Positions 6,431-47,757 of a stretch of DNA of 64,000 nt are shown piece after piece. Numbering within the stretch: the first letter of the stretch is position 1; each line of letters opens with the position of its first letter. Under the pieces are notes generated by a model. The model searched no databases. It was not told the origin of the DNA and saw nothing but the letters and a program-made list of their open reading frames with translations. The DNA lies in contig JAJPEN010000069.1 in assembly GCA_021166835.1 (NCBI GenBank), positions 1-64,000 on the forward strand, written 5' to 3'. This stretch comes from Burkholderiaceae bacterium (GTDB lineage: Bacteria; Pseudomonadota; Gammaproteobacteria; Burkholderiales; Burkholderiaceae). A program made the position numbers and the translations under genes.

Positions 6431-6704
6431 CGATGTACTGCACCTGAATATCGATTGATTTGGCGGAAGATCGGTATAGGCCTGAAGTCATTGATTTATA
6501 AAGAGTTTCTCGTACGCGTGCTCGGCGAAGTTACCAGTGAACCGCCTCCCCAACTTGGGCTTGGATGATACGGCATGGGAGAGGGGGGAACGCGGTCTTG
6601 GACAATCTCAGCGGCGGTGTCTCTCTGACTGTGGCTGGTCGATGACCATGCTGTAGTTGGACGCGTCGCCTGAACCTTGTGCTTATATTTTTTGAGACAG
6701 TTGA

Positions 6705-9807: not shown

Positions 9808-9933
9808 AACTACTTATGCCTGATGTTTCCGAATCTGCAAGTCCGCCGAGAGGAGCAGAAGCCGGGAGAAAACAAACGCACCCACTTGTTCGTAGAGTCG
9901 TAGTTAGCCCGGCAAGCGCCGACGCGTAGACTT

Positions 9934-11646: not shown

Positions 11647-11695
11647 CTGGAAGCAGCGTTTGGAGTCAGGGATGCGGTGGGATGGCTTGGATCAC

Positions 11696-14929: not shown

Positions 14930-15497
14930 TGATCAGTGCCTGCAGCGCGACGACCAAGTCCATCTGGGCCAGGGCGTCGGGAACATCGGCGTAGGTGATT
15001 CGAAAGGCCTCTATGAAGTCCGGCACTCGCTCGATGCTGCTGCCGTAGAAGACCGGCACGAACCGGCCGCCGAGGCTTACCTTGGTCTGTCCCCAATCCG
15101 CCTCAGGCGCGAAGTCTTCAAGGGTAGGAAATTGGGGCCACACCGCGTAAAGTGCTTGGGAGAACTGTTGGAAGTCGGCGTAGCTCTCGATTCTTCTACC
15201 GCCGCGTCCTTTGAGCGGGGCGTCCAGAAACACGCACCATGCGAACGCATGTTTGACGTGACTTCCGGCGTTCGCCGGCCAGAGCTCAGACACGCCAATC
15301 GCAAGCGCTACTTCTGCGGCGTCATACTGGCTGAGGAGGGTGCGGGTCTGCCCCACTTGGACGAGAAAGGCGTTTTTCAGCTGTTGGCGTTCGCCAAACT
15401 GGTCGTGCCAGCTCATCATCTGGTGGAGTAAGACATCAGGATCTCCCGCGCTCTTGGCAAGTCGGCGCTCGCGCTTCTCTTTTGACTTCCTGCCCAC
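14538..15497 (-). CDS. N-terminal part of the large nuclease-like protein, probably frameshifted
   Basis: The first 190 residues (from ATG 15497) look like genuine protein: a basic start MGRKSKEKRERRLAKSAG, then MMSWHDQFGERQQLKNAFLV and IERVPDFIEAFRITYAD. After ALIIEAIPPS the composition turns into Arg/Cys-rich shadow sequence, running to a stop at 14538. Exactly there (14914-14919) lies a run of six C on the coding strand. Removing one C joins the frames as ALIIEAIPHLGQSPVVDAER and continues into the 11696-14929 frame. The gene may therefore be one 1265-aa protein with a lesion, a sequencing error, or a recoding site. Confidence 0.6.
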   Translation of the reverse strand: MGRKSKEKRERRLAKSAGDPDVLLHQMMSWHDQFGERQQLKNAFLVQVGQTRTLLSQYDAAEVALAIGVSELWPANAGSHVKHAFAWCVFLDAPLKGRGGRRIESYADFQQFSQALYAVWPQFPTLEDFAPEADWGQTKVSLGGRFVPVFYGSSIERVPDFIEAFRITYADVPDALAQMDLVVALQALIIEAIPPSRAVPCCRCGTWPRRASPGRFLALVQECAAEHRSTERRLAPARGNLSRWGSRWLQGAADLGIVRQRSIHWRCRSLLGRQCRRDLVPDGATKRSGDSRRSLGKEEHVGCQPSGAQEAGAVCLRAL

Positions 15498-15835
15498 GAG
15501 ACCTCCCCAATGTTATTGAAGATTCACCTGTTGGTGACTTCTGGCTCTCACCGCGCAGCGGAGACACCGTTAGCGCAGCAGTGCATGCGCAACGCTTGCG
15601 TGAGGTGAAGCGAACGACCGCTTGATGGGACTCCGCCGTAAGTACGAGCTGCGCCAGCAAAGGACAGCAACCGCCGCAAAACAGACCTTCAATTGCATCT
15701 TCTGAACTTCCGCTCCTGGCCGAGAGCCTCACATCGATTGAGACGCCGCATCGATTGACCGCTTGAGCGGGGAGCGGTCACAGCCTCGCCCGGCGCGAGT
15801 GACGGCTTTCAGTCTGAAGCGGTCCGGGGAGCAGA
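15498..15835. other. Spacer between the nuclease cassette and the Fic gene
   Basis: About 340 bases that should carry the promoter of the 15497-7474 gene set and the 3' region of the Fic gene. A 98-codon open frame on the minus strand overlaps it but has unlikely composition. No hairpin-plus-T-run terminator was evident. Confidence 0.45.
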
Positions 15836-17401
15836 TCAGTCTGGCCGTGGCAAGGGGCTCAGTGCCTGCCCCCGAGTCAGTTGCGCAATGAAGTCCGTGA
15901 ACGGCCCAATCTCACCATAGGAACTGGCGCGTTCCAGCGCCTGCATATAGCGCTGCCGCTGCTGCACGGGGATGATGGTCCAGACATAGCCGCCGGTGAC
16001 GAGCATGGCGTTCATCAGGAAGCGGGCTAGACGGCCGTTGCCATCCATGTAGGGATGGATGAAGACGAACAGGAAATGCCCGAGGATTGCCCGGACGGCG
16101 GGGTGCGGTTCGTTTTCGATGAGCTCGAACAGCACGGGCATACATTCGCGCACGGCTTCCTTGGCGGGAGGAACATGCAAGGCGCCACGAATGAACACCT
16201 GATTGTTGCGCCATCCAGCCAGATCCGAAGGCTTGAGCAGGCCGGCTTGTACGCTAGGGCTGAAAAGCGCCGGATACCACGCACCTAGCGCTTCGCGCAG
16301 GCCTTGTAGCCCAGCTTGTTTCGCCTGCTGCTGCAGCGTCTTGGAGATGAAGTCCTTGACGAGTTTGTAGGCTTCGAAATAGCCCTTCGCCGCCATGGCA
16401 TCGCGTTGTTGACGATCAACTCCTTCCGGATCCCAGGCGCCGTTGCGGACCTTCTCGATCAAGTCCGCCGTGACATGGTAGCCCTCGATGGACAGCGAGT
16501 GATAAGCATCTGCCACATAGCGCGCTTCGATGTACATGAGAACCCGCGCTTCATCAATGGGCAGGGGACCGGGAGCAGGAAAAGCGGTGATGACTGCGTC
16601 GCGCATGGTCGCCCAATTCAGACGCAGGCGTTGCACGTGGGGAGAAGTTGGGCGGCCAGTGAGCAGCGGCGGCGGAGGTGCGTCGAACGGAGAGACTTCT
16701 TGAACCGTGTAGCCGGCGCCGCGCATGGTGCTGATGATGCTGTTGGCGAAGTCGGCCCGGCCCACCGCGCGGAACGCGCCTGCCAGCCGCCCGGCGACGA
16801 CGGAGTGCGAACCGTCGAGCAGTCGTTGCAACAGCGGCGCGGTGTCATCGACCATGCCCAGGGCAATGCGTGCGGCCAAGGGCTGTTGCACGAAAAACGT
16901 GGGCGACACGGCCACGAGCGCATCTGTGAGGTTCACGAGACGGATGCCTCGATCCTCCGGATGCGGCCCGGCGGGCAGGAGTTGGGGGGCTCGATATAGG
17001 AACAAAGAACACCCGTGGGGCAGCTGCACCAACTGGTTGTTGCCCGCGGTGGACCAGACCTGCAATTGCCAGGGGAGGGTGCGCTCGCCAGACCTCAGCA
17101 ACAGGGATAGCTCGGGACTCAGGTGCCAACTTTCCCCGAAACGCGCATCGCAGTAGCCGGCGACGAAGTCGCGCATGCCGGCGAACCATGCGGCGGTGCT
17201 GCCTTCGATGCTGCCGATGGAGAGATCAGGCCGTGCTGGGAGGTACCAGCCCTTGATGACTTCCTGCAGGTAGCCCGCCTTGCTCAGACGCTCCCGATGG
17301 GTTCGCGACAAGGCCGAGCTTCGAACGACGCGTTGGCCGTTCTCCTGTATCGCCCTGAGCTGTTCGAGGGACGTGGCAAGTTTTTCGTTGGGCGTCGCCA
17401 T
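15836..17401 (-). CDS. Fic-domain AMPylase-like protein with AbiEi-like N-terminal winged helix
   Basis: About 521 aa from ATG 17401 (a GTG at 17407 is also possible). The C-terminal half is a Fic domain with HPYMDGNGRLARFLMNAM (His about 451), the motif that transfers AMP from ATP to target hydroxyls. An autoinhibitory motif of the S/TxxxE(G/N) type is seen upstream as SLSIEG (about 304-309), so this is an internally inhibited class II-like Fic protein. The N-terminus (RVVRSSALSRTHRERLSKAG then WYLPARPD) resembles the winged helix of AbiEi antitoxins. Target unknown. A promoter with repeated CACTACT-type motifs lies just upstream. Confidence 0.85.
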   Translation of the reverse strand: MATPNEKLATSLEQLRAIQENGQRVVRSSALSRTHRERLSKAGYLQEVIKGWYLPARPDLSIGSIEGSTAAWFAGMRDFVAGYCDARFGESWHLSPELSLLLRSGERTLPWQLQVWSTAGNNQLVQLPHGCSLFLYRAPQLLPAGPHPEDRGIRLVNLTDALVAVSPTFFVQQPLAARIALGMVDDTAPLLQRLLDGSHSVVAGRLAGAFRAVGRADFANSIISTMRGAGYTVQEVSPFDAPPPPLLTGRPTSPHVQRLRLNWATMRDAVITAFPAPGPLPIDEARVLMYIEARYVADAYHSLSIEGYHVTADLIEKVRNGAWDPEGVDRQQRDAMAAKGYFEAYKLVKDFISKTLQQQAKQAGLQGLREALGAWYPALFSPSVQAGLLKPSDLAGWRNNQVFIRGALHVPPAKEAVRECMPVLFELIENEPHPAVRAILGHFLFVFIHPYMDGNGRLARFLMNAMLVTGGYVWTIIPVQQRQRYMQALERASSYGEIGPFTDFIAQLTRGQALSPLPRPD

Positions 17402-17428
17402 GATCACATGGTTGCACTAATATCACGT

Positions 17429-17492
17429 AGTATATTTTCACTACTATTACGCGTTGTCAACACACTACTTTCGCGTATTTCGCGCGCACTAC
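17429..17492 (-). promoter_or_regulatory. Putative promoter and repeated operator motif of the Fic gene
   Basis: On the minus strand a TTGACA box (17455-17460) and a TATACT box (17429-17434) precede the Fic start, with a rather long 20-nt spacing. On the plus strand the motif CACTACT recurs (CACTACTATTACGCG, CACTACTTTCGCG, then GCACTACC), along with ACGTAGTA nearer the start. The segment is clearly AT-richer than its surroundings. Such repeats next to a protein with an AbiEi-like DNA-binding domain suggest autoregulation; this is inference. Confidence 0.45.
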
Positions 17493-18844
17493 CTTTCTGT
17501 TTCCCCGGGTATATGAGGAGCGCTTGCCCTCTGCAATGGCACCGTGCGGATGGCTTGGTCGCTCGCGACAGCCACCGGCAGGTCATCGGCTGACGTATGA
17601 CCGTGCTCCAGCAAATGCAGATATTCCGCCCACTTGGTAAGTGTCGTTCGACGTTCGAGAAGGTAGTCGTATTGGTTGTAGATTCCCTCGACGGACTGCA
17701 GCGCATGGTTCAGGGCTCGCTCAGCAATGTCGGAGGCGATGCCCATGCGCGCCAGGTGGGTCCGGGCCGTGCGCCGCATGTCGTGCACCGTGAAGTGAGC
17801 GATCTCCAAGTTCGTCAGGCGCCTCAGCGCGACGTTGAGCGTGTCGGGAGAGACGTGAGGAAAACGGTTCTTGACGGATTTGCCCAGCCGAGACCGTACT
17901 CGTCACCGAGCAGGGAAGAGGTACTCGCTATTCCCTGAGAACACCATGACCTCCTCCAGCCAGCCCAATACGACATCGGATAGCGGAATGACGATGGGCG
18001 CCCGGGTTTTCGTGTCTTCGCTCATCAGCGTCCATTCGGCACGCTCGAAGTTGAAGGCGGATTTCTTCGCGGACAGCAGTTCCATCTTGCGCACGCATAG
18101 AGCCAAGAGCAGCCACACGGACAGTTCGTTGATCCGCCCGAAGCTCTCCGTCTCACGCATTGCCGTGGCAAGAACCGCCAGTTGATCGCAGTCGAGCCAC
18201 CGCGTGCGTGGATGCTCCGTTCCTTCGGCGTCCAGCAGCGTGAAGCCCGTCGTGGGATTGTTCAGCCGGTAGCGTTTACGGATGGCGAAGTTGAACATCC
18301 GGACCATGTATCGGAGCAGATCGTTCGCGACGGTCGGGGCTCCGGCTTTCACCGCCCGGTCGAGAATGCGCTCGACGTGTTCCGGTTGCACCTGGTCGAC
18401 CATCAGGTGCCCGATGATGGGATCGACGTAGCGTATGAAAGAGGATTCGACCCGTTCCGGTTTGTCGTAGTTCGGGGCGATATAGCGCGTGTACCAGACC
18501 CTGCGCAGGGCAAGGCATGGCCGCTTCCGCCGGTTGACCAGCTTGAAGTGTTGCTTCTCCGCGGCGACGTCCACGCCTTGCTGAATCTTCGCCCGATCGA
18601 TTCGAGCGAGCTCGCGGGCGGCTTGCAGGGAGATGTCCGGGTATCGACCGAGTGCCTTCTCCTTGCTCTTTCCCGCGAAGCGGTAACGCAGAATCCAGGA
18701 TGCTTGGCACTCCCGGGCCGCGGAGGCCGAGGCCATGAAGGTCAGGCCACCTCCAATTCCCTTGTCGACCGGACCGGCGCGCAACCATGCCCGCAGGGTC
18801 AGCTCGGTAACGCGTTTTTCGGCTTCATGGTTCACTACTGACAT
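17489..18844 (-). pseudogene. P4-type tyrosine integrase, broken by one frameshift
   Basis: An almost complete integrase. ATG 18844 has a GGAGAT ribosome site. The N-terminal DUF4102-like domain (WILRYRFAGKSKEKALGRYP, ISLQAARELARID) and the core-binding domain (VDQVQPEHVERILDRAVKAG) are followed by the first catalytic region LLLALCVRKMELLSAKKSAF. At about 17900-17905, after YLFPAR, the frame hits TGA. The C-terminus continues in another frame as RFPHVSPDTLNVALRRL and HFTVHDMRRTARTHLARMGI (HxxR), RALNH and GIYNQYDY (Tyr nucleophile region). One indel therefore separates all catalytic C-terminal residues from the rest. The core gene yicC lies just beyond its 5' end. Confidence 0.82.
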
Positions 18845-18946
18845 CACGCAATCTCCTTTCCAAGTGCTTCGGAACATGGAGTGCGCGCCAGTCAGGCGAA
18901 CGCGGCAAATCGCGCAGAATCAAGCTTGGCGCGGCTCTCCGGGAGC

Positions 18947-38943: not shown

Positions 38944-39019
<76 letters not shown>

Positions 39020-39027
39020 GACATCCG

Positions 39028-39103
39028 GTCCCGTTCGTCTAGAGGCCTAGGACACGACCCTTTCACGGTCGGTACAGGGGTTCGAATCCCCTACGGGACG
39101 CCA
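39028..39103 (+). tRNA. tRNA-Glu (UUC)
   Basis: Cloverleaf of 76 nt with acceptor GTCCCGT/ACGGGAC and GCCA end. The anticodon arm CGACC-CTTTCAC-GGTCG gives UUC. The T arm is AGGGGTTCGAATCCCCT. It lies 8 nt after tRNA-Ala and is the likely integration target of the element that follows. Confidence 0.96.
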
Positions 39104-39146
39104 AGACTTGATTCGAGAAGGTCCGGAGAACACCGGAAAACGACGC

Positions 39147-39174
39147 AAAGCCCTGAGATATCGGGGCTTTTTTG
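39147..39174 (+). terminator. Rho-independent terminator after the tRNA pair
   Basis: AAAGCCC (39147-39153) pairs with GGGCTTT (39164-39170), and a run of T follows. It lies 44 nt after tRNA-Glu. Confidence 0.75.
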
Positions 39175-39214
39175 TTTTCTGTCGTCCGACATAGTTCGTT
39201 GACGTTCGGGAAAG

Positions 39215-39279
39215 GTGGGGGTACGGTCCGGGGGAACGGCTGTCATGTTCCCCCATTCCCCCGGAGCTTGTTCCCCCAT
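39215..39279 (+). repeat. G-run direct and inverted repeats upstream of the satellite integrase
   Basis: A unit of the form GTGGGGGTACG-GTCC-GGGGGAACG covers 39215-39238; it recurs at 47088-47111 with two mismatches. Inverse copies of GGGGGAAC (as TTCCCCCATTCCCCCGG and GTTCCCCCAT) fill 39248-39279, running into the integrase start codon. These look like arm-type integrase sites. Confidence 0.7.
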
Positions 39280-40507
39280 GCTGACCGACGCGAAGTGCAG
39301 GAATGCGAAATGTCCGACCGACAAGGCGCGCGCGCGTTTGAGCGACGCCGAAGGGCTCTATCTCGAAGTCTCGCCACAGTCCGCGCGGTGGTTCTGGAAG
39401 TACCGATTCGAGGGAAAGGAAAAGCGGCTTGCGCTCGGCGTGTATCCGGCGGTCGGTCTGAGCGAGGCGCGCAAGGCGCGCGACGAGGCGCGAACGACGC
39501 TCAAGACCGGCGCCGATCCAGTTGCCTCGCGGCAGGAATCACGGCGCGAGGAACGTAGGCGCGAGGCCGAGCAGGCGTCGAACACGTTCGAGGCGGTCGC
39601 CCGGCGCTGGTACGAGCACTGGCGCGGCGCACAGACGGAGCGCCACGCCGAGTATGTCCGCCGCCGGCTCGAAGCCGACGTCTTTCCGGCGATCGGTGCG
39701 CGTCCGATCGGCGAAATCACGGCGCGCGAACTCGTCGCGATGGCCGAGAAGATTCAGGAACGCGAGGCGCTCGAACTCGCGCGCCGGTCGATCCAGTATT
39801 GCGGGCAGGTTTTCCGGTGGGCAGTCGCACGCGATATCGTCGAACGCAACCCTGCGGCCGACGTGAAGCCGCGCGACGTGCTCAAGCCGCGCGATCGGCG
39901 GAACTACGCTCGCCTGAGTGCGAAAGAGCTTCCGGAATTGCTCCGGAAGATCGAAGGCTATGCCGGCGCGTATACCCGGCTCGCGATGAAGCTCATGGCG
40001 TTGACGTTCGTTCGCACGGGTGAATTGATCGGCGCGCGGTGGGACGAATTCGAGAATCTCGACGGCGGCGCGGGCCTGTGGCGCATTCCGGCGGCGCGAA
40101 TGAAGATGAAGACCGAGCACCTTGTCCCGCTATCGCGGCAAGCGGTCGACGTGTTGCACAGCCTGTACGAAATCCGCGGGCGGTCGGGCCTTCTGTTCGT
40201 CGGCGAACGCAACCACGAAAAGCCGATGAGCAATAACACGATCCTCAAGGCGCTCGAACGCATGGGGTACAAGCACCGGATGACCGGGCACGGCTTCCGC
40301 GGCGTCGCGTCGACCGAGTTGCACGAATTGGGCTTCCCGCACGAGTGGATCGAGTTGCAATTGGCGCATCAGCAGCGCGACCAAGTCGCGGCGGCGTACA
40401 ACCATGCGGGCTATCTCGCGCAGCGTCGGCAGATGATGCAGGCATGGGCCGATCGGCTCGACGAGTTGCGGCAGGGAGCGAAGGTCGTTCCGATCCGGGC
40501 GGCGTGA
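39278..40507 (+). CDS. int: P4-type tyrosine integrase
   Basis: Site-specific recombinase of 409 aa, apparently intact. ATG 39278 opens the DUF4102 N-terminal domain (MLTDAKCRNAKC, then LYLEVSPQSARWFWKYRFEG and KRLALGVYPAVGLSEARKAR). The catalytic residues are visible: Arg in FVRTGELIGARWDEF, HxxR in MTGHGFRGVASTEL, His in LAHQQRDQVAAAYNH and Tyr in HAGYLAQRRQ or AAYNHAGY. It is next to tRNA-Glu and reads into the element, as usual for integration into a tRNA 3' end. The adjacent GTGGGGG repeats may bind its N-terminal domain. Confidence 0.94.
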   Translation: MLTDAKCRNAKCPTDKARARLSDAEGLYLEVSPQSARWFWKYRFEGKEKRLALGVYPAVGLSEARKARDEARTTLKTGADPVASRQESRREERRREAEQASNTFEAVARRWYEHWRGAQTERHAEYVRRRLEADVFPAIGARPIGEITARELVAMAEKIQEREALELARRSIQYCGQVFRWAVARDIVERNPAADVKPRDVLKPRDRRNYARLSAKELPELLRKIEGYAGAYTRLAMKLMALTFVRTGELIGARWDEFENLDGGAGLWRIPAARMKMKTEHLVPLSRQAVDVLHSLYEIRGRSGLLFVGERNHEKPMSNNTILKALERMGYKHRMTGHGFRGVASTELHELGFPHEWIELQLAHQQRDQVAAAYNHAGYLAQRRQMMQAWADRLDELRQGAKVVPIRAA

Positions 40508-40956
40508 TCGTGGCGACAACGAAACCTCGTCGGCGCCTTGTTCGCATCGAACTTGCGGCGGCGCATTGGCGCGGCGCGTTCGTTACCGTTCGATGGAAAA
40601 GCGCGCCCGACGCCGAGCCGATGGAGCGCTTCGCGATCTTCGTCTTCGATCGGCCGCGCGGCGGCGCCGTATGGGTCGAAGGCGGTTACGCCGATCCGTG
40701 GGGCACGTCGAGCCCGGCAATGCATGAGATCGAGCGCGTGCGCGAAGTCGCGCCGCGTCGCTCGGCGGGACCGGCGTTCGAGGGGGACGGCGGTAACGGC
40801 GCGTGGACGGCGACGATCGAGCCGTATCGCGCCGGTGCGTCGCCCGATTTCGACCGGGCGTTGCGGTGGTTCGATACTGTGTACCTGCCCGAGAAGGGGC
40901 GTACCTGGGCCGAAGAACGCGAGTGGGTTCGCGGCGCAGTGCGCGGGGGCAAATGA
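40504..40956 (+). CDS. Unknown satellite protein
   Basis: 150 aa from GTG 40504, which overlaps the integrase stop (GTGA). No recognised family. The N-terminus is basic (TTKPRRRLVRIELAAAHWRG), followed by a beta-rich region with VTVRWKSAPDAEPMERFAIF and VWVEGGYADPWGTS, and a Trp-rich end. The next gene overlaps its stop in the same manner, so it belongs to the integrase transcript. Function unknown. Confidence 0.65.
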   Translation: MIVATTKPRRRLVRIELAAAHWRGAFVTVRWKSAPDAEPMERFAIFVFDRPRGGAVWVEGGYADPWGTSSPAMHEIERVREVAPRRSAGPAFEGDGGNGAWTATIEPYRAGASPDFDRALRWFDTVYLPEKGRTWAEEREWVRGAVRGGK

Positions 40957-41600
40957 CGATGATGAAACCGTGGCGAAAGGTCTTCCCTGAGAGCGTTCCG
41001 CGCGGGCTACAGCAGTGGCTATGGAATGTCGCGGAAAGCTCGCGTGAACCGAAGGAAACCGGTGCTTCGGGCAGCGGCAAGAATCGCAATCCGTCGGCCG
41101 CTGCGGAGAAGATCGAGAAGAAGGCCGACGAACTGATCAAGATGATCCGCGACTTCTACACGGACCACGCGAATGCTGCGTGCGACGTCGACGTGCGCGG
41201 CTTGGCAGAGGAGTCGTTGCCCGGTCTGGCGATTAACAAGGAAGTTGCCGCAATTGCCTTCGATCGACTGAATCTTTCCGCTGTGCTGGTCGCGCTTCGG
41301 GTTCAGATGCACTACGTTCAGAAGCTCAATCCGCCCAAACAAGGGCGGCCGAGAAAGCTTGTCGCCGGGCGACTCGTTTGGATCGCTGCCGGAGGGTTCG
41401 AGCGCTACGGCTTGCCGGTGGGACGTGCGGGAAAGTACGGGCATCCGCCGAGCGATTTCTCTGCGACGTGCGAAGCGATGTTCAGGATCGCCGGAATCGT
41501 GGGGCCTGATGAATCGGCTCCGAACCTCGACAACCTGATCAGAGAAGTCGAGGAGGATTGGAAGGCGCGCGGTATTTACTCGGCGATGCTCCGCGATTAA
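40953..41600 (+). CDS. Unknown satellite protein
   Basis: 215 aa from ATG 40953, overlapping the previous stop (ATGA). A Lys/Glu-rich helix lies at about 45-70 (EKIEKKADELIKMIRDFYTD). A likely DNA-contacting basic stretch LNPPKQGRPRKLVAGR lies near 130. The C-terminus is VEEDWKARGIYSAM. I recognise no family. Position between integrase and alpA matches where satellites keep regulatory or interference genes, but this is inference. Confidence 0.65.
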   Translation: MTMMKPWRKVFPESVPRGLQQWLWNVAESSREPKETGASGSGKNRNPSAAAEKIEKKADELIKMIRDFYTDHANAACDVDVRGLAEESLPGLAINKEVAAIAFDRLNLSAVLVALRVQMHYVQKLNPPKQGRPRKLVAGRLVWIAAGGFERYGLPVGRAGKYGHPPSDFSATCEAMFRIAGIVGPDESAPNLDNLIREVEEDWKARGIYSAMLRD

Positions 41601-41669
41601 GTACCGCAGGCGCGTCATCGGTTCAGCTTCAATTCGCAGCGTGTCAACGCTGCCCGAGGGGGGCCGAAC

Positions 41670-41885
41670 GTGTCGAACCGTACCGCTCAAGCACCGACCG
41701 AATTTCCCGATTCCATTCGCCGACTTCCCGCAACGCTCGCGATCGTCGGCCTGAGCCGGAGCACGTGGCTCGATCTCGTGCGCAGGAAGGAGGCGCCGGC
41801 GCCGATTCGGCTGTCGCTCAAGGCGGTAGGCTGGCGCGAATCGGAACTTCGCAATTGGCTCGATAACCGCCCGTCCGCGCGCTGA
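41670..41885 (+). CDS. AlpA-family transcriptional regulator
   Basis: Short helix-turn-helix protein, 71 aa, GTG start after a GAGGGGGG ribosome site. The signature is IRRLPATLAIVGLSRSTWLD followed by PAPIRLSLKAVGWRESELRN and WLDNR. In P4-like satellites and PICIs, AlpA activates the excision/replication module. It precedes the zinc-finger and helicase genes by 9 nt, fitting that role. Confidence 0.88.
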   Translation: MSNRTAQAPTEFPDSIRRLPATLAIVGLSRSTWLDLVRRKEAPAPIRLSLKAVGWRESELRNWLDNRPSAR

Positions 41886-41894
41886 GTCGCCGTT

Positions 41895-42365
41895 GTGTCG
41901 ATCGAAATGCTGCTTTCGCGGCTCGATCGCGTGCGCCGCGTCGGGCAAGGGAAATGGATCGCCCGGTGCCCGGTGCACGACGATCGCAGCCCGTCGCTGA
42001 CGATCAGCGAAACCGCGGACGGGAAAATTTTGGTGCATGACTTCGGCGCCGGTTGCCCCGCTGCCGAGATACTCGACGCCGTCGGACTCGATTTCGCCGC
42101 GCTGTTTCCCGAGCGCGACCCGGACGACGTCGGCCGGATGAAGGGGTGGCGCTCGGCCGGCGTGCGTGACTCACGCCAGCGAATCGAATCGATCCCGCCG
42201 CGTGTCGCGCTCGTTGCGATCCATGCCGACGCCGTCGAGGCGGCCGTGATTGCCTCCGACTTAGCCGACGGCCGATGCACCGCCGAATCTGTGCGCGTGA
42301 AGCTTTGGACGATCGCCGGGCGCATCGCTTCGGCGGCTTCGATGACCGAGGTTCGCCGTGGCTGA
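41895..42365 (+). CDS. Primase-type CHC2 zinc-finger protein, no catalytic domain
   Basis: 156 aa, GTG 41895. The N-terminal 60 residues resemble the DnaG/P4 zinc finger: KWIARCPVHDDRSPSLTISE (CPxH) and LVHDFGAGCPAAEILDAVGL. The usual downstream TOPRIM or archaeo-eukaryotic primase domain is absent. The C-terminal 90 residues are helical and unrecognised. It overlaps the helicase start by 8 nt, so the two are probably a split replication pair. Confidence 0.75.
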   Translation: MSIEMLLSRLDRVRRVGQGKWIARCPVHDDRSPSLTISETADGKILVHDFGAGCPAAEILDAVGLDFAALFPERDPDDVGRMKGWRSAGVRDSRQRIESIPPRVALVAIHADAVEAAVIASDLADGRCTAESVRVKLWTIAGRIASAASMTEVRRG

Positions 42366-43506
42366 TGCAATTGCACAGGCGCGCGCGGTAGTCGATCGAG
42401 CCGTCCGCGAGCAACGCGAACAGGCGCCGCGGCTGCGATTCCTCAAGGTCGACGAGTTACTGCATCAGCCGGCGCCCGCATGGCGCGTGCTTCGCATCAT
42501 CCCGGCGCGCGGTCTCGTTGTGATCTGGGGGGCTTCGGGCTCGGGCAAGACGTTCGCCGCGCTCGATATCGCAGGCGCGATCGTGCGCGGCTTGCCGTGG
42601 GCCGGGCGCCGTACGCGACGCGGCGTCGTCGCCTACGTCGCGGCCGAAGGGCAATTGCGCGATCGGCTGGATGCATACCTGCAGCACGGCGACCTGTCGC
42701 TCGACGATCTCGGCGGCCTGCGCATCCTCGATTCCGCGATAAACCTGCTCGATCCGTCGGGCGCCGTTCACGCGCTGATCGACGCGCTCCGAGAAGTCGC
42801 CGACGAAGCCGGCGGCGTCGCAGTCGTCATCGTCGACACGTTGAATCGATCAATGCCGGGCGGCGACGAGAACTCGTCTGAGGACATGGGCAACCTGATC
42901 GCCGCGGCGAAGCTGATCGAGCGCGAACTCGGCTGCGCCGTCGTGTTCGTGCATCACAGCGGGAAGGACGAAACGAAGGGTAGCCGCGGGCATTCGTCGC
43001 TCAAGGCCGCGACCGACGCCGAGATCAGCGTCAAGCGCGACGGCGACGTGCGCACGGTAACGGCCGAGAAGGTCCGGGACGGTGCCGACGGCGAGGTGCT
43101 GATGACGTTTCGGCTCGCGTCGGTCGATCTCGGCGCAATGATCGAAGTCGATCCCGAAGCCGACCCCGATGAGCGGCGTACTTCGTGCGTCGTCGAGCCG
43201 ATCAATTCGCCCGTACAGCGTGCGTCGTCGGCGCGGTTCTCCGACACGGACGAGATCGCGCTGCGCGTGCTTCGTGATCTGTGCGCCGACACAGAGGACC
43301 GGACGGAATCGACTTCGCTGCATCCGGCCGGAAAGCCGCGCGTCGCGCTCGACGATTGGCGCGAGCGCTTCCGCAAGGAACGCGGCGTTGCGAAGGACGA
43401 TCGGCAGGCAATGGAATCGAGCAAGAAGGCATTCCAGCGCGCCGTCGACAAACTCAAGAACGCCGGGATTGTCGGCGTTTACGAAGCGCGGACGTGGCTA
43501 TGGTGA
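42358..43506 (+). CDS. RepA-like AAA/RecA-fold replicative helicase
   Basis: 382 aa, GTG 42358. It is a RecA-fold ATPase similar to hexameric RSF1010-RepA helicases. Walker A is IWGASGSGKTFAALDIAGAI (about residue 56), Walker B VVIVDTLNRSMPGGDEN, and the sensor region VFVHHSGKDETKGSRGHSSL. The C-terminal 110 residues contain a likely winged helix (ALDDWRERFRKE). It probably unwinds the element's origin, which by repeat content lies in the 300 bp directly downstream. Confidence 0.87.
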   Translation: MADAIAQARAVVDRAVREQREQAPRLRFLKVDELLHQPAPAWRVLRIIPARGLVVIWGASGSGKTFAALDIAGAIVRGLPWAGRRTRRGVVAYVAAEGQLRDRLDAYLQHGDLSLDDLGGLRILDSAINLLDPSGAVHALIDALREVADEAGGVAVVIVDTLNRSMPGGDENSSEDMGNLIAAAKLIERELGCAVVFVHHSGKDETKGSRGHSSLKAATDAEISVKRDGDVRTVTAEKVRDGADGEVLMTFRLASVDLGAMIEVDPEADPDERRTSCVVEPINSPVQRASSARFSDTDEIALRVLRDLCADTEDRTESTSLHPAGKPRVALDDWRERFRKERGVAKDDRQAMESSKKAFQRAVDKLKNAGIVGVYEARTWLW

Positions 43507-43796
43507 ACGGCTTTCAGCGGGACATTTCCGCTTCCGCTCGGGCTCGCGTGGCGCCGCTGCCCCGCTCGTTCGAGAAAGGGGAGCGGGACAACGACGCAGA
43601 AGCGCGTTCGCTCGTCGGAAAGCAAGCATTGGCGCGCCTTTTCCGTGAAGCGGGACAGCGGGACACAGCGGGACATTTGCGGGACATGTCCCGCCCGGAA
43701 CGGACGCCAACAGCGGGACGGGACGGGACAGCAGCCTATAAGGCTGTCCCGCTGTCCCGCTGCCCCGTCCCGCGATCGCGTCGGAGTGCGTCATGA
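43500..43796 (+). CDS. Possible small protein over the repeat array
   Basis: 98 aa from ATG 43500, overlapping the helicase stop. The N-terminal half (MVNGFQRDISASARARVAPL and ARSLVGKQALARLFREAGQR) could be protein, but the C-terminal half merely translates the GCGGGACA repeats. The start/stop overlaps with both neighbours favour translation; the repeat content argues that DNA function dominates. Confidence 0.4.
   Translation: MVNGFQRDISASARARVAPLPRSFEKGERDNDAEARSLVGKQALARLFREAGQRDTAGHLRDMSRPERTPTAGRDGTAAYKAVPLSRCPVPRSRRSAS
43517..43773. repeat. Iteron-like GCGGGACA array, candidate replication origin
   Basis: Exact GCGGGACA copies begin at 43517, 43583, 43650, 43658, 43668 and 43679. Exact inverse copies (TGTCCCGC) begin at 43687, 43745 and 43753. 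Variants begin at 43713, 43723 and 43766. Copies at 43679 and 43687 form the perfect palindrome GCGGGACATGTCCCGC. The direct and inverse sets face each other across an AT-richer hairpin CAGCCTATAAGGCTG (43732-43746). The array directly follows the helicase gene, as iterons do in replicons with a RepA/P4-like initiator. Confidence 0.8.
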
Positions 43797-44005
43797 CCGA
43801 CGATCGCCGCGCAATCCGTCGCACGTTTCGCGTCGGTCGCTTCACCTGCGAATTGACCATTCCGCTGCTCGGTCCCGGCGTCGTCGCGATGGCGAGCGCC
43901 GAATGGTCGCCGCGCGTGCCCGAGCGCCTGTCGTCGCGCGAACGAGCGATCTACGAGGCGGAATTGGCGCGGGCACTCGCGCAAGCAACCGAGGGTGAGC
44001 CGTGA
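43793..44005 (+). CDS. Small conserved-looking satellite protein
   Basis: 70 aa, ATG 43793 overlapping the previous stop. Sequence begins MTDDRRAIRRTFRVGRFTCE and includes LTIPLLGPGVVAMASAEWSP, a pattern I associate with small hypothetical genes of Burkholderiales prophages and islands; no function is known. Its stop overlaps the next start. Confidence 0.65.
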   Translation: MTDDRRAIRRTFRVGRFTCELTIPLLGPGVVAMASAEWSPRVPERLSSRERAIYEAELARALAQATEGEP

Positions 44006-44334
44006 ACGAAGCGCGACCCGTCTTCGTCGAATTCGTCGCGCCGGTCGAGCAGCCGGTGCCGCCCGACGTCGAAGCGACGTTCGCCGAATGCGTGCGTGTC
44101 GGGCTGTACTCCGAAGCCGATCGCGAAGGGCTGCGCGCCGGGTACCGGGTCGCCCCCGAGGCGATGCGCCGGCTCGTCGCGGACATGGCCGAGCGCATCG
44201 ACCGTTGTTCGCGTTGTCGATATCTACGCGGCGTCGGCGCTTCCGCGCGCTGTCTCGGTCGTGACGTGAACCGCTTGCCGGCGGATCGGGGCGCGCATTG
44301 CAGCGCGTTCGCGCCGGCGGTGCCGCAACGATGA
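44002..44334 (+). CDS. Small Cys-rich satellite protein (possible zinc ribbon)
   Basis: 110 aa from GTG 44002, overlapping the previous stop (GTGA). The C-terminus has a Cys/His cluster, RCSRCRYLRGVGASARCLGR, then HCSAFAP, which could bind zinc. The rest is acidic and helical. Function unknown; part of the small-gene run after the origin-like repeats. Confidence 0.6.
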   Translation: MNEARPVFVEFVAPVEQPVPPDVEATFAECVRVGLYSEADREGLRAGYRVAPEAMRRLVADMAERIDRCSRCRYLRGVGASARCLGRDVNRLPADRGAHCSAFAPAVPQR

Positions 44335-44459
44335 ACGTGGCCGCCACAAAATCGGGCCTACAGCGCGCGATCGGGCGTGCGTGGCTACCGACCTATTCCC
44401 CGATGCCGAAGAACGCGCCTGCGTCGATCTGGTGCGTCCGGGCGTCGATTCTTCTGTAG
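44331..44459 (+). CDS. Possible 42-aa protein
   Basis: ATG 44331 overlaps the previous stop (ATGA), and the frame ends at 44459, 21 nt before the next gene. The peptide begins MNVAATKSGLQRAIGRAWLP. Only the overlap and spacing support it. Confidence 0.35.
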   Translation: MNVAATKSGLQRAIGRAWLPTYSPMPKNAPASIWCVRASILL

Positions 44460-44480
44460 TGAAACCGGAGCAACGAGAGA

Positions 44481-45152
44481 ATGAAATTTTCCGTCACCCC
44501 CCAGGTTGCCGATCTTCGACGCGCGAAGGCGCGCCACGATCGCGCGAAGGCCGAAGTCGAGCGGATCGCGGCAAGTGCCGAGCAGGCGCCGGCCGCCGAG
44601 ACAACCGCGGCGACCGACGAAGCGCTTGCCGCCGCGCGCCGAGCGTACGAAGACGCGGCCGGCGCGCGTGCGCTCGGCGATGCGACCGACGCCGATCTCG
44701 CGCAAGCGTATTCCCGGCTCGACGCGGCGCAACGAGCAGCGAACCGAGCGAACGACGACGCGCAGCGCACCGAGGCGGCCGTCGTCGGTCTGGCGCGAAG
44801 GCTCGACGCGGCGAAGGGCGAACGCGACGAGGCCGCGAAAGCCCTGCGCGAAGCGGAAGTCGCATGGCTGAACGCCGAGCTTGTCGCGGCGGATCGCGAG
44901 CATTGCGAGGCTATCGAGAGGCTCGGCCGAGCATTCGGACGCGCGAAGGCGATCGGCAATGCAATCGTGCGACGCGGCGCGCCGTGCTCCGCGTACCTCA
45001 CTCATGCGTCCGTTATCAGCGATCTTCCGTTTTTCGGTATCGCGTCGAGCCGTGAGGATCAGCGAGCCGAGATGCGCAAAGCTTTCGCAATCGACGCGCA
45101 GCAGGCCGAAGCGGCCGTCGCGCGCGCTGCACAGACGACGATGAACCGATGA
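44481..45152 (+). CDS. Coiled-coil satellite protein
   Basis: 223 aa, ATG 44481 after a GAGAGA site. Residues 8-150 are Ala/Arg/Glu-rich with heptad spacing (LRRAKARHDRAKAEVERIAA, LARRLDAAKGERDEAAKALR), a probable long coiled coil. A short globular end follows (SAYLTHASVISDLPFFGIAS). No family recognised. In satellites such proteins are sometimes scaffolding- or capsid-interfering, but nothing here proves that. Confidence 0.6.
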   Translation: MKFSVTPQVADLRRAKARHDRAKAEVERIAASAEQAPAAETTAATDEALAAARRAYEDAAGARALGDATDADLAQAYSRLDAAQRAANRANDDAQRTEAAVVGLARRLDAAKGERDEAAKALREAEVAWLNAELVAADREHCEAIERLGRAFGRAKAIGNAIVRRGAPCSAYLTHASVISDLPFFGIASSREDQRAEMRKAFAIDAQQAEAAVARAAQTTMNR

Positions 45153-45225
45153 CACGCGATTCGGCTGCCGTTCGTCGGAACGTGCATCAACTTTCGGTAG
45201 TGGATCCACTCGAAAAGCGTGTCCC

Positions 45226-45350
45226 GTGCAACCGAAAAGCGGTGAACTTTCGGGCGTTCGAGCCGTGCGAAGCCGGCGCGGCGCGGGATGCGACGCCGAG
45301 CGCGCGCATCGCCCGCCGTTCGTCGCCCGTTTCGTGCGCTTTTCGGTTGC
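45226..45350. repeat. Perfect 15-bp inverted repeat
   Basis: GTGCAACCGAAAAGC at 45226-45240 is matched by GCTTTTCGGTTGCAC at 45336-45350, with 95 nt between. A partial direct copy CGAAAAGCG lies at 45211. It falls in a low-confidence open frame (45149-45439) between the coiled-coil gene and the 75-aa gene. Confidence 0.75.
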
Positions 45351-45435
45351 ACCGTACTACCAAGAATCGCGTTGCATCAACCGGCGCTCGTCGCGCATTG
45401 TCGATCCATCGCAACCTTGCACGGAGTGAACGAAG

Positions 45436-45663
45436 ATGAACGCAACCGCCGTAGCCACGCTGTCGCCCGAGCGCGGAGAGAAGCTGCGCAGGTTCGTCGC
45501 GAACTGGATTCAGGAAACGTCGGTCGTCGGCGTCGATGCCGTCGAGATCATCGGCGATGACGTGATCGCGCGCGATCGGTTCGGCTCGTACGGCGTGGGC
45601 ACGATCGCCGATTGGTTGCCGGTCGCGCGTGCGCTCGGCGCGTTGCGCGGTTCGGTCGAATGA
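45436..45663 (+). CDS. Small satellite protein, 75 aa
   Basis: ATG 45436 follows GGAGTGAACGAAG. Composition looks like a real folded protein (LRRFVANWIQETSVVGVDAV, VIARDRFGSYGVGTIADWLP). No family known. Its stop overlaps the next start. Confidence 0.55.
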   Translation: MNATAVATLSPERGEKLRRFVANWIQETSVVGVDAVEIIGDDVIARDRFGSYGVGTIADWLPVARALGALRGSVE

Positions 45664-45956
45664 GGCGCCCGATCATGACGACGAACGAGCACGAAGGGAC
45701 CGACGTTCAGTCGATCGCGTTGTACGACGACGGCTTCGCGTGGGAGGCGATCGTACGGGTTCGCGGCGTCGCGTACGTCGCGCGGTACGTTGCCGGCCGG
45801 CTGTCGGTCGATGCGGCGCCCGGGCGTCGGCGCGCGGCGCGCGCGGCTTTGGCACGCCGAAGTCGTGCGCGAGTGGTCGATGGCGAAGGTAGCGCGCCTG
45901 CCGCGAAGCTGGCATCGCCGGCACGAGGCGATGCACGGGATTCGTCGCGAGCGTAA
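45660..45956 (+). CDS. Small satellite protein, about 98 aa
   Basis: ATG 45660 overlaps the previous stop; a second ATG at 45675 is an alternative. The first 60 residues (VQSIALYDDGFAWEAIVRVR, GVAYVARYVAGRLSV) look genuine. The C-terminus turns Arg/Ala-rich, while an overlapping frame (45790-46017) reads WHAEVVREWSMAKVARLPRS, so a frameshift near 45830 is possible. Function unknown. Confidence 0.5.
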   Translation: MRRPIMTTNEHEGTDVQSIALYDDGFAWEAIVRVRGVAYVARYVAGRLSVDAAPGRRRAARAALARRSRARVVDGEGSAPAAKLASPARGDARDSSRA

Positions 45957-46326
45957 TGCCGTCCGGCGCGCCGTGCGTGCGCGCCTTGCGGCCGAACAAC
46001 CGAGCGCGTGCGCGTGACGCGAGCGGCGCATCGAGCGCGAAAGGCGACCGGCGGCCTTGCCGTGGCTGTCGGCTCGCGGTACATCGGATGGGAGGCGGCG
46101 CGCGGCGCCCGAGGCGCCCGATAGGGGAATAGGACCGGCCGATCCTGTTCGGGCGGCCGGGCGGGCCTTAGTCGTGAGTCGCCCGCGTCAAAAAGCAACC
46201 GCGACAGCCCGCGGCGGCGATCTCAAGCCGCGCGGCGGGCACCTATGCCGACCACGAGGGAGGGGCGAAACGTGACGAACGAAGACGCGGCGCAGGCCGC
46301 CGGCCGAGTACTCGGCGCGATTCGGA

Positions 46327-46461
46327 GTGCTTCCGCCGTTCCCGTTCGGCGTCGAAGATTTGTTCTACGTTCGTGTGCTGCGGCAGGCGCTTGACGACGG
46401 AAAGCCGATCGACCCGGAATTCGATTGGTATCCCGACTTGCCGCCGGGCGCGCTCGCTTGA
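46327..46461 (+). CDS. Possible short protein upstream of the DUF2280 gene
   Basis: 44 codons from GTG 46327. The peptide PPFPFGVEDLFYVRVLRQAL then DDGKPIDPEFDWYPDLPPGA is clearly protein-like, but the start is weak. A GTG at 46272 with a better ribosome site (AGGGGCG) is in another frame (TNEDAAQAAGRVLGAIRS), so an indel between them may have broken a somewhat longer gene. Confidence 0.4.
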   Translation: MLPPFPFGVEDLFYVRVLRQALDDGKPIDPEFDWYPDLPPGALA

Positions 46462-46512
46462 GCGGTGCGGCGCCGCCCCGCAACCTGTACCGGTCCGATA
46501 CGATTCGAGGAA

Positions 46513-47055
46513 ATGGCAAGGCTCGACGATCGAACCAAGACGCGCATCGTTCAAGCGCTGGCGTGCTACGACCCGCCCGCGCAGGTCGTCGCGACTGTCA
46601 AGGACGAATGCGGCGTCGCCGTCACGCGGCAGCAGGTCCAGTGTTACGACCCCGAGAAGGTCGCCGGGCGTTCGCTGGCGAAGCGCTGGTCGGACCTTTT
46701 CTTCGCGACCCGCGAAGCGTTCCTGCGCGACGCGGCCTCGATCCCGATCGCGAATCAGTCGTTCCGCCTTCGCGCGTTGCAACGGATGTACGAACAGGCG
46801 TCGACGCGCGGGAATATCCCGCTCGCAGCCGCGGCGCTCGAACAGGCGGCGAAGGAAGTCGGCGGCCTGTTCACGAACCGGCGCGAGCACTCGGGGCCGG
46901 CCGGCGGACCGATCCGAACCGACAGCGTGCATCATCTGAGCGACGCCGAGCTTGAGCGGATCGCCGCGAGTGGCACGCCTGATCAAGTCCCGGTTCACTG
47001 TTGCGAAACGCCGTCGCTTTCGCCGCGCGCCGGGGCGGTTAGAATCGTTCGCTGA
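46513..47055 (+). CDS. DUF2280 protein (putative phage small terminase subunit)
   Basis: 180 aa from ATG 46513, where the family normally starts (MARLDDRTKTRIVQALACYD). Further family features are PPAQVVATVKDECGVAVTRQ, the CYDPEKVAGRSLAKRWSDLF segment, SIPIANQSFRLRALQRMYEQ and AAAALEQAAKEVGG. In complete phages DUF2280 genes lie just upstream of the large terminase and are taken as TerS. Here no large subunit follows; the element ends about 130 nt later. A lone TerS is the tool satellites use to redirect a helper phage's packaging. Confidence 0.85.
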   Translation: MARLDDRTKTRIVQALACYDPPAQVVATVKDECGVAVTRQQVQCYDPEKVAGRSLAKRWSDLFFATREAFLRDAASIPIANQSFRLRALQRMYEQASTRGNIPLAAAALEQAAKEVGGLFTNRREHSGPAGGPIRTDSVHHLSDAELERIAASGTPDQVPVHCCETPSLSPRAGAVRIVR

Positions 47056-47087
47056 TATCCGCGTTGATCCGCCTGCATCCGGCCCAA

Positions 47088-47111
47088 GTGGGGGAACGAT
47101 CCGGGGGAACG
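47088..47111 (+). repeat. Right copy of the element's 24-bp direct repeat
   Basis: Matches 39215-39238 in the same orientation at 22 of 24 positions (GTGGGGGAACG-ATCC-GGGGGAACG). The copies are 7.87 kb apart and bracket all element genes, beginning 32 nt after the DUF2280 stop. Confidence 0.75.
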
Positions 47112-47160
47112 CTCGATATCAGGATCCCGCGAAAGCCTTATCCGGCGCGGCTTTCCGGCC

Positions 47161-47186
47161 GATATTCGGAGTCCCTACGGCCATCT
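47161..47186 (+). other. Possible degenerate att half-site
   Basis: TTCGGAGTCCCTACGGCCA (47165-47183) resembles the tRNA-Glu 3' part TTCGAATCCCCTACGGGA with gaps, and is followed by a terminator just as a tRNA would be. The match is imperfect, so this is a suggestion for the right boundary only. Confidence 0.3.
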
Positions 47187-47514: not shown

Positions 47515-47757
47515 TCAGCGTTTGGCCGGCGCCTTGTCGCGCACGTTCTCGAAAACGGCGAAATCTTCATTGGTCAGCCCGATCCTGCGACCGATGGCGG
47601 CCAGGGCTTCGCCCACACGCACGCGCTTCTCCGGCTTGACCACAGCCGCCAGAATCTCCCGCACCTCGGCTTCCGTGCTGCGGCCGTGCTGGGCTGCCCG
47701 CACGCGCAAAGCGCGATGCACGTCATCGGGCACATTCCTTACAGTCAGGATTGCCAT
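47515..47757 (-). CDS. fitA: FitA/VapB-like ribbon-helix-helix antitoxin, orphan
   Basis: 80 aa. The N-terminus AILTVRNVPDDVHRALRVRA is a ribbon-helix-helix DNA-binding domain, followed by AAQHGRSTEAEVREILAAVV, typical of FitA-type antitoxins. FitA normally pairs with a downstream PIN-domain RNase FitB; none follows here, so the module seems truncated. It borders the right end of the satellite, where insertion or deletion may have removed the toxin. Confidence 0.82.
   Translation of the reverse strand: MAILTVRNVPDDVHRALRVRAAQHGRSTEAEVREILAAVVKPEKRVRVGEALAAIGRRIGLTNEDFAVFENVRDKAPAKR

Follow-up and report, generated by a model that had tools for sequence, protein, structure and literature searches.

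The element described here lies in a 64 kb stretch of Burkholderiaceae DNA (the window), in which it spans positions 39104-47180, a length of about 8 kb, with a tRNA-Glu gene on one side and a degraded copy of the 3' end of that tRNA on the other. This bears out the initial annotation, which had placed a compact element beside tRNA-Glu; its far end, set there at 47186, is corrected to 47180 from the position of the second copy of the core. The attachment gene, tRNA-Glu (ttc; 39028..39103, plus strand), follows a tRNA-Ala (38944-39019) and carries the attL core CCCTACGG at 39089-39096, and attR (47173..47183, plus strand) consists of a shortened 3' fragment of tRNA-Glu, CCCTACGG----CCA, from which 4 nt of the tRNA end are absent. 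The window core is just 8 bp long; on the plus strand of the 64 kb it is found at 39089 and 47173 only, and on the opposite strand at 1625 and 38364. The GC content of the element (66.3%) is lower than that of its flanks (70.2% and 69.2%).

Near each end we located a doubled GGGGGwAC motif on the plus strand, one in the P' arm (39217..39236, centre 134 bp from the core; a putative arm site of the integrase or AlpA) and the other in the P arm (47090..47109, centre 77 bp from the core). There are two such motifs in the 64 kb and none in 100 Markov shuffles. In L082, the closest complete relative, which shares 10 collinear genes and the same tRNA, the doubled arm motifs lie 76 and 135 bp from the core (76 bp by coordinate subtraction). 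HE-PICIs possess a doubled att motif at 81 and 132 bp; its sequence differs from GGGGGwAC and, in the sections of PMC10111431 drawn upon here, it was seen among PICIs only in the HE-PICIs. The same sections report tRNA-fragment deletions at attR solely from PICIs, and the affected tRNAs that they name exclude Glu (PMC10111431). Such a deletion is 1 nt long in L082, as measured against the empty site of genome G071, and 4 nt long in the window, where no empty site serves as control. The nearest relatives of the window, G072 and G075, were rejected as empty sites, other DNA occupying the place. As regards the PICI trait of an att site that prophages do not use, 15 further tRNA-Glu loci from the family, which are of unequal length, contained no full-length match to the window integrase (the only one queried; 0/15), with a fragment present in G070. 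A phage megablast with the whole element retrieved 4 records, all of them aligning solely to the tRNA end of the query.

Integration genes

The first gene encodes an inward-pointing P4-type tyrosine integrase (39278..40507, plus strand) with Arm-DNA-bind_3, Phage_int_M and Phage_integrase domains above cut-off; comparison with L082, whose integrase is 82% identical, indicates that it probably starts at ATG 39278. It is overlapped by 4 nt (GTGA) by g2 (40504..40956, plus strand), an arrangement present in both the window and L082. The position of g2 is like that of the PICMI iolg, and g2 is a candidate excision partner. No known fold convincingly matches its structure model (pLDDT 80; best E 0.0077, TM about 0.3), and an alignment search of viral contigs found no relative of it. 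A further 4-nt overlap joins g2 to g3 (40953..41600, plus strand), which has no assigned function and a 36% identical homologue in L082. Next comes AlpA (41670..41885, plus strand; PF05930, 1.4e-10), an excisionase/regulator that is counted in 1/169 prophage models and in 203/203 and 259/273 satellite models in the part of PMC10111431 used here, where an inward integrase is likewise given as a satellite trait in which prophages differ.

The genes had been described as all running in one direction. This holds for the assigned genes; a crude composition caller, however, favoured minus-strand ORFs at five places, at which, the iteron array excepted, L082 homologues back the plus-strand genes.

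Replication module

The replication module opens with a primase-type CHC2 zinc-finger protein (41895..42365, plus strand), matched by the PHROG DNA primase family at 3.2e-11 and by CHC2 at 19.3 bits, against a cut-off of 24.9. It is 67% identical to its L082 homologue; profile searches detected no catalytic primase domain in it, and a search of viral contigs gave no confirmed relative. The adjoining gene (42358..43506, plus strand) encodes a RepA-type, RSF1010-like helicase (AAA_25, 3e-37; the helicase profile matches RSF1010 RepA), 72% identical to that of L082. Its overall predicted structure is poor (pLDDT 66), and we rely on the model only for the winged helix at the C terminus and for the general resemblance to RecA/RepA. 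Directly after the helicase, an iteron array around a palindrome forms a putative replication origin (43507..43792, plus strand), with 13 copies of CGGGAC/GTCCCG, compared with a Markov mean of 0.41 and a maximum of 4 in 2000 shuffles. L082 has an array in the same place, with the unit CGGACA. Profile matches and the repeat count thus confirm the AlpA, zinc finger, RepA-like helicase and iteron-like array of the initial annotation.

A close form of the helicase was found in 1/74 genomes of the family (with 4 more at 40-45%) and in 1/399 genomes of the order, the same genome in both cases. The closest helicases come from metagenome sequences and MAGs, and among viral contigs the best match has 53% identity. 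Helicases at 59-97% identity are those of P0001, P0002, P0006, P0011, P0024 and P0031. Helicase matches also occur in 17 plasmid records, at 27-35% identity among the 15 matches listed. Related helicases lie near TerL at 3/16 loci tested (L001-L003, from viral contigs), and also at L086.

Middle genes and late zone

Five genes without assigned function, all on the plus strand, follow the origin. These are g7 (43793..44005; 70% identical in L082), g8 (44002..44334; 39% and 34% to two L082 stretches), g9 (44481..45152; 42%), g10 (45436..45663; 39%) and the small ORF g11 (45675..45956), whose DNA is 71% identical to L082 10698-11024; g7, g8 and g10 are likewise small. The stretch 45960-46510 has no clear gene call, and all assigned genes are unbroken. 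The last gene (46513..47055, plus strand; start ATG 46513) belongs to DUF2280 (8.4e-40). Because DUF2280 genes lie immediately upstream of terL in 4/4 phages opened (318 records matched), we read this gene as the small terminase subunit (TerS); its PHROG family, phrog_546, is itself annotated 'unknown'. Two phosphatases matched it in the PDB at E 0.06-0.07; they were taken as chance, leaving no PDB relative. Beyond DUF2280/phrog_546, no virion family was found among 10 proteins scanned plus g10, with ORFs below 100 aa (including g11) partly covered, so that the description of a terminal DUF2280 gene without virion genes stands for these proteins.

Upstream of TerS lies a diverged copy of the Proteo-phage-1 RNA (RF03044; 46129..46209, plus strand), with a hairpin and a possible pseudoknot (28.3 bits, E 0.067). 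By covariance the match is full-length, yet it falls under the gathering score of 42, as does that of L082 (34.1 bits). Across 8 above-cut-off copies, the 10 pairs of the hairpin and 3' pairing are paired in 80/80 cells; in the window and L082 copies both helices can form with different letters, and the predicted minimum-energy fold differs. Elsewhere RF03044 mostly adjoins terminase or late genes. Blastn with the window RNA and the copies of two relatives found no phage, the conserved 34-mer of the RNA, as an exact pattern, had no match in viral contigs, and C4 and isrK RNAs had no match at E 0.5. RF03044 matches in G136 and G179 (32-33 bits) failed to reappear at E 0.01, and we treat them as chance. 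A search for Proteo-phage-1 by name found no literature.

Relatives of the element

Homologues of 10/12 queried proteins are present in L082, the exceptions being TerS and a flanking antitoxin. No virion genes were found there (7 proteins scanned; 13 TerL/portal/capsid queries). The TerS of L082 is unrelated to DUF2280 and belongs to a family that precedes terL in 4/4 phages opened, directly in 3 of them (76 matched), and that bears the PHROG label 'Rnase E'. The order integrase, AlpA, zinc finger, helicase, DUF2280, which the initial annotation proposed to look for in relatives at tRNA-Glu, is collinear in L082 up to its last member, where an unrelated TerS lies instead. After this TerS, L082 carries a BglII-type REase and an MT-A70 MTase as cargo. 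Genomes G071 and G001 agree over 1263 bp on the left (99.8%) and 3115 bp on the right (98.7%), and the site in G071 is without the L082 element; since a near-identical genome lacks it, the element has, on sequence comparison, recently moved into its tRNA-Glu site. The window and L082 are the two complete members that were read.

A more distant element, in G174, has an integrase 58% and a zinc finger 40% identical, together with an AlpA-like gene, and continues into capsid, protease, portal, HNH and TerL genes, with RF03044 located after TerL. The 18 kb that were read, with part of their genes scanned, showed no tail module, and in its sequence this element resembles a capsid-forming PICI. At L081 a major head protein lies upstream of the integrase. 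Both G174 and L081 are compatible with PICIs bearing other late genes.

Nature of the element

Taken together, gene content, att site and relatives make it very probable that the element is a Gram-negative PICI-type phage satellite. The satellite reading of the initial annotation is the best supported, with a collinear relative devoid of detected virion genes, an empty site in G071 and PICI-like traits of att site and gene order. A helper phage would switch on alpA, and AlpA and the integrase, probably with g2, would excise the element. The helicase may then bind the iterons via its winged helix and open the origin, and the zinc-finger protein would bring in a primase of the host or helper. 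The DUF2280 TerS would finally join the large terminase of the helper, and satellite DNA would enter helper capsids.

A temperate phage stripped of its head, tail and lysis genes, with the integration and replication genes left over and, at its end, the first terminase gene kept by chance, would account for the related helicases near TerL (L001-L003 and L086), for a DUF2280 gene that in phages normally has terL after it, and for the GC content below that of the flanks. We consider it quite unlikely, however, as the layout is common to two complete elements, one recently moved, with virion genes found in neither; no assigned gene is broken (45960-46510 having no clear call); and the late zone holds unrelated TerS families in the window and L082. 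The portion of PMC10111431 used here gives AlpA, an inward integrase and tRNA damage as satellite traits, and prophage hallmark genes (capsid, portal, TerL, tail) had no match in the window proteins scanned. Relatives running on into capsid and large terminase genes had been named beforehand as the sign of a deleted prophage; the closest complete one, L082, shows no such genes in the searches made, and only the more distant G174 does. It is this distant element, whose integrase, AlpA-like gene and zinc finger are related and lead into capsid, portal, HNH and TerL genes and then RF03044, that speaks for a fragment of a capsid-forming PICI, either decayed or captured, whose capsid block was lost and TerS kept or gained. 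The window and L082 are, nevertheless, collinear with a capsid gene found in neither, and the form is therefore inherited rather than a private deletion of the window, which renders such a fragment unlikely. Least probable, indeed very improbable, is an integrative mobilisable or plasmid-like element, in which the RepA-type helicase and iterons would be a plasmid replicon and DUF2280 an accidental passenger. The match to RSF1010 RepA, the iteron array and the 17 plasmid records (27-35% among the 15 matches listed) would fit, yet no relaxase or initiator family was detected among the proteins scanned, TerS is retained in both complete members, and AlpA and the PICI-like att geometry would be left unexplained.

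Returning to the satellite reading, the RF03044-like structure beside TerS may work as an RNA switch of the late zone or as a site associated with packaging. We tentatively raise a broader possibility, itself rather doubtful: Proteo-phage-1 could control packaging or the late operon in tailed phages and have been taken over by satellites. A PICI-like lineage of its own, equipped with a zinc finger and a RepA-type helicase but without its own primase, could then move between helpers by exchanging the interchangeable TerS that lies next to this conserved structured RNA. If true, the RNA element would gain an assigned function, which its link to terminase and late genes renders testable, and TerS exchange offers a handle on helper change by satellites. 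The element further suggests PICI-like satellites in Burkholderiales with a different replication module. L082 and G071 provide a clean pair of occupied and empty sites, and L082 an example of a restriction-modification pair carried by a satellite. As the viral-contig helicase is at best 53% identical and g2 found no relative there, the lineage may escape virus-centred surveys.

Comparison with known systems

P4-like satellites combine a P4-type integrase, an AlpA/Vis-type regulator and a tRNA site with Psu/Sid/delta and an alpha primase-helicase. The window shares the first three traits; alpha primase-helicase, Psu/Sid/delta and late-activator families had no match among 10 window proteins. 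With the Proteo-phage-1 RNA, it shares the same hairpin and possible pseudoknot, kept by different letters, whereas its copy and that of L082, at 28-34 bits, lie under the 42-bit gathering score and adjoin TerS in a satellite.

The remaining comparisons draw on parts of the cited papers. With Gram-negative PICIs (EcCICFT073 and others; PMC6092414, PMC10111431) the element has in common an inward integrase, AlpA and unidirectional genes, a late zone with TerS, 3'-end cargo (in L082) and no lytic or tail genes found. Of the primase/Rep module that an origin follows in PICIs, it shows the zinc finger and the helicase, with the iteron array as a putative origin directly after them, and no catalytic primase domain was detected. 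The shortened attR tRNA fragment and the doubled att motif spaced as in HE-PICIs are shared as well (PMC10111431). Among PICIs, terS is present in some, not all (PMC6092414). Unlike those described, the element would replicate by a zinc finger and a RepA-type helicase that are separate proteins; no Bro-zone gene was recognised in it, its size of 8 kb is small and its host belongs to the Burkholderiales. PICMIs, the minimalist islands of Vibrionaceae, share small size, AlpA and the 4-nt gene overlap with the integrase, the latter being overlapped by few nt in 21/35 subfamilies (PMC10803314). PICMI115, however, is without terS, and the PICMI model has a DUF3987/DUF5906 primase (PF13148/PF19263) and a fis site (PMC10803314), in contrast to the TerS and tRNA-Glu site of the window; that primase had no match among 10 window proteins. 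As for cfPICIs (PMC11389934), the G174 relative has its integration zone and zinc finger in common with the window and also encodes capsid, protease, portal and TerL, whereas neither the window nor L082 yielded a capsid gene or TerL. Judging by titles and abstract openings, none of the papers retrieved on PICIs with Burkholderia or betaproteobacteria describes such an element. That the lineage is undescribed, as first proposed, is plausible because the closest helicases come from metagenome sequences and MAGs, with PICIs compared by their published descriptions. The element looks like a little-sampled Burkholderiales lineage resembling known phage-inducible islands.

Organization and ends of the element

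The element (39104-47180), found on a contig of 112,610 bases, lies downstream of tRNA-Ala and tRNA-Glu. An integrase gene (39278-40507, + strand) is followed by g2, g3, AlpA, a zinc-finger protein, a helicase, an iteron array, g7 to g11 and a terminal DUF2280 gene (46513-47055, + strand), which codes for the small terminase subunit (TerS). Gene calls, Pfam and PHROG matches and shuffles bear out the initial annotation, which had described this integrase-AlpA-zinc finger-helicase-iteron-DUF2280 layout at tRNA-Glu. The integrase, AlpA, helicase and DUF2280 proteins exceed the curated Pfam cut-offs; the zinc finger falls under its cut-off, yet has a clear match in PHROGs. Searches of Pfam, PHROGs and NCBIfam assigned no family to g2, g3, g7, g8 or g9; g10 likewise had no hit in Pfam or NCBIfam. 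The replication module has no detectable primase domain. All assigned genes share a single direction, as had been claimed; a crude composition-based caller favoured ORFs on the minus strand at five places, at four of which genes on the + strand are backed by homology to the closest complete relative element (L082, in genome G001), while the fifth overlaps the iteron array. There, CGGGAC or its complement occurs 13 times (mean 0.41, maximum 4 in 2000 first-order Markov shuffles), and CGGACA or its complement occurs 10 times at the equivalent place of L082 (shuffle mean 0.26, maximum 3).

The att core CCCTACGG is present at only two + strand positions of the 64 kb, 39089 and 47173, with two copies elsewhere on the other strand. 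The window contains just two copies of a doubled motif of 20 bases, one towards each end of the element (0 in 100 shuffles); their distances from the attP centre are 77 bp on the upstream and 134 bp on the downstream side, and the corresponding distances in L082 are 76 bp (by coordinate subtraction) and 135 bp. The right end of the element was set by the core and the end sequence common to L082. Just beyond attR lies a FitA-like antitoxin gene (47515-47757), where the DNA has no homology to that of the nearest relatives. Elsewhere in the window, a second island of lower GC content (about 55-62%; 6000-18900) carries a shortened integrase (17903-18877, - strand), a Fic-domain protein (15836-17407, - strand) and two large proteins that match nothing in Pfam; it is possibly a defence island.

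A collinear sister element that moved recently

A helicase scan of genome contigs yielded 16 loci, among which L082, from a MAG labelled Burkholderiaceae, is the best complete one. The tRNA-Ala/tRNA-Glu pair of the window recurs in L082, downstream of folD. Ten of the 12 window proteins queried match L082 collinearly: integrase (82% identity), g2 (58%), g3 (36%), AlpA (38%), zinc finger (67%), helicase (72%), g7 (70%), g8 (39% and 34%, in two stretches), g9 (42%) and g10 (39%). The other two, TerS and the flanking antitoxin, have no match there; g11 matches at the DNA level.

In the near-identical genome G071, the right-hand flank of the L082 element begins immediately after the same tRNA-Glu; identity to G001 is 99.8% across the left flank (1263 bp) and 98.7% across the right one (3115 bp). 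Because this empty site has matching flanks, the L082 element (3450 to about 14795, some 11.3 kb) is, by sequence comparison, a precise insertion; this sister element has moved recently. At attR, L082 has the fragment CCCTACGG-ACGCCA and the window CCCTACGG----CCA, versus CCCTACGGGACGCCA at the empty site. For the window element no empty site was found: in G072 and G075, whose flanks are 91-93% identical, different DNA follows tRNA-Glu until homology returns. L082 also possesses an internal copy of its right arm (8270-8360), comprising the doubled motif and the end sequence but lacking the att core, which suggests that it is a fusion of two tandem satellites. A remnant at the same tRNA-Glu (L200 in genome G070, from 1266) has a left end like that of the window element and an integrase fragment.

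In L081 (a Steroidobacteraceae MAG), an integrase with no detectable similarity to that of the window precedes a zinc finger (60%) and a helicase (73%), after which the contig stops. Searched against 5.8 billion proteins, the helicase has 64-97% identity in the 25 best-scoring of 152 clusters; its best match is 53% in IMG/VR, 37% in phages among the matches listed (40 of 62 records) and 35% in plasmids (15 of 17 listed). The same protein search returned eight relatives of g2 besides the window's own entry and none of g3. Integrases of 50-60% identity occur in 13 further genomes of 399; since all seven opened loci with such integrases (G174, described below, and six others) are at tRNA-Ser, the integrase alone is not a marker of the lineage.

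Probable exchange of the small terminase

The large terminase gene (terL) directly follows DUF2280 in all four phages opened (Magia, JBD44, RHph_TM3_3_3 and phiAH14a) from 318 matching records. No DUF2280 match was found in L082, which carries in its stead a PHROG 645 protein without significant similarity to the DUF2280 TerS. This PHROG is named 'Rnase E'; among the 25 phage relatives listed, 10 are annotated as terminase small subunit and 5 as Rnase E, and terL lies downstream in all four phages opened (directly in three, after five small genes in one). As unrelated families that precede terL occupy the late zones of two otherwise collinear elements, comparison of their sequences indicates that TerS has very probably been exchanged while the remaining genes stayed in place. 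In L082, TerS is followed by satellite cargo (12095-13689): a BglII-type restriction endonuclease and then an MT-A70 methyltransferase (PADLOC MTase_II).

A structured element resembling RF03044

A full-length match to RF03044 (Proteo-phage-1) is located at 46129-46209 (28.3 bits, E 0.067) and another at 11846-11925 of L082 (34.1 bits, E 0.017), against a gathering score of 42; at the DNA level they share 85% identity. The family was retrieved from 3 of 74 family genomes (2 above the cut-off) and 6 of 399 order genomes (3 above). Of the eight above-cut-off copies examined, five come immediately after the 3' end of a terL-related ORF, 1 to 168 nt away from it (G066, G174, G338 and two in G010, where only C-terminal parts of TerL are present); two are located between early genes and the lysis-terminase operon (phages phiAH14a and Solano), and one, in G085, has no terminase match within 1.5 kb on each side. 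The copy in G066 belongs to a short element (L206:9001 to L155:7073) with an integrase, an unknown gene, major head protein, portal, TerS, TerL, the RF03044 RNA and a 63-aa gene, which looks like a minimal capsid-forming satellite.

Across the eight copies, the hairpin and pseudoknot are paired in 80 of 80 cells. Double-sided changes affect 5 of 10 pairs (14 of 500 shuffles reach as many) and the covariation score is 0.60 versus a shuffled mean of 0.13 (0 of 500 shuffles), controls that are not probabilities, the copies being related and the helices chosen on the same alignment. Both helices are possible in the window and L082 with other letters, but the minimum-energy folds predicted there are different ones. 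An inverted-repeat DNA site could likewise covary, while one G-U pair weakly favours RNA. The element may serve as an RNA switch or a packaging site.

Satellite or deleted prophage

According to the initial annotation, relatives in which the same genes run on into capsid and large terminase genes would point to a deleted prophage. Such a relative, albeit a more distant one, was found in G174, on a 4.6-Mb contig at tRNA-Ser: a related integrase (58%), an ATGA-overlapping gene, an AlpA-like protein (phrog_66, 7e-4), a zinc finger (40%) and a helicase-like protein are followed by major head protein, protease, portal, HNH endonuclease, TerL, an RF03044 structure 1 nt past the terL ORF, and a head-tail adaptor. 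Relatives of the integration zone can therefore continue into head genes. No tail module was detected in the 18 kb read (8 proteins scanned), nor was attR found, and this element looks like a capsid-forming PICI (phage-inducible chromosomal island). A major head protein (phrog_617) also lies upstream of the L081 integrase, in a contig whose two ends do not overlap. TerL matched in 3 of the 16 helicase loci (L001, L002 and L003; helicase 48-53%) when these were queried with 13 terminase, portal and capsid sequences, a set covering few TerL types, so that misses say little. In a further locus (L086, helicase 38%), two tRNA-Glu 3' ends bound an element of 11.4 kb in which an open frame (10287-12344) encodes TerL (1-467) and then, in frame, an SSB-like part (544-685). 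According to PMC10111431, 21 of 29 reference PICIs carry a major capsid gene, so L081 and G174 by themselves are no argument for a prophage. The collinear L082, the recent movement of this sister, the TerS family and the PICI-like att traits make the originally proposed satellite nature very probable.

Comparison with PICIs and PICMIs

The insertion site, gene order, TerS family and origin-like repeats of the element are established. By analogy with EcCICFT073 and PICMI115, for which PMC6092414 and PMC10803314, respectively, describe helper-triggered AlpA expression, a helper phage would trigger expression of AlpA. Int, AlpA and g2 would then excise the element, the helicase might open the origin via the winged helix at its C terminus (modelled with confidence, although the model is poor overall), a host or helper primase would prime, and TerS would package the DNA together with the TerL of the helper. 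PICI-like is a better label for the element than proven PICI, because its replication module shows no primase domain and helper dependence is putative.

PMC10111431 describes Gram-negative PICIs as combining AlpA and an inward-pointing integrase with a replication zone and a late zone that varies, and reports AlpA in 1 of 169 prophage models versus 203 of 203 and 259 of 273 satellite models. Deletions in the tRNA fragment at attR are reported there for PICIs only, Glu not being among the tRNAs listed. In HE-PICIs, not in other PICIs, the paper places a doubled motif at 81 bp on the upstream and 132 bp on the downstream side of the attP centre; that of the window is similarly spaced but differs in sequence. 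Finally, excision of PICMI115 is reported in PMC10803314 to need a gene overlapping int by 4 nt, and g2 overlaps int by 4 nt in the window and L082 alike.
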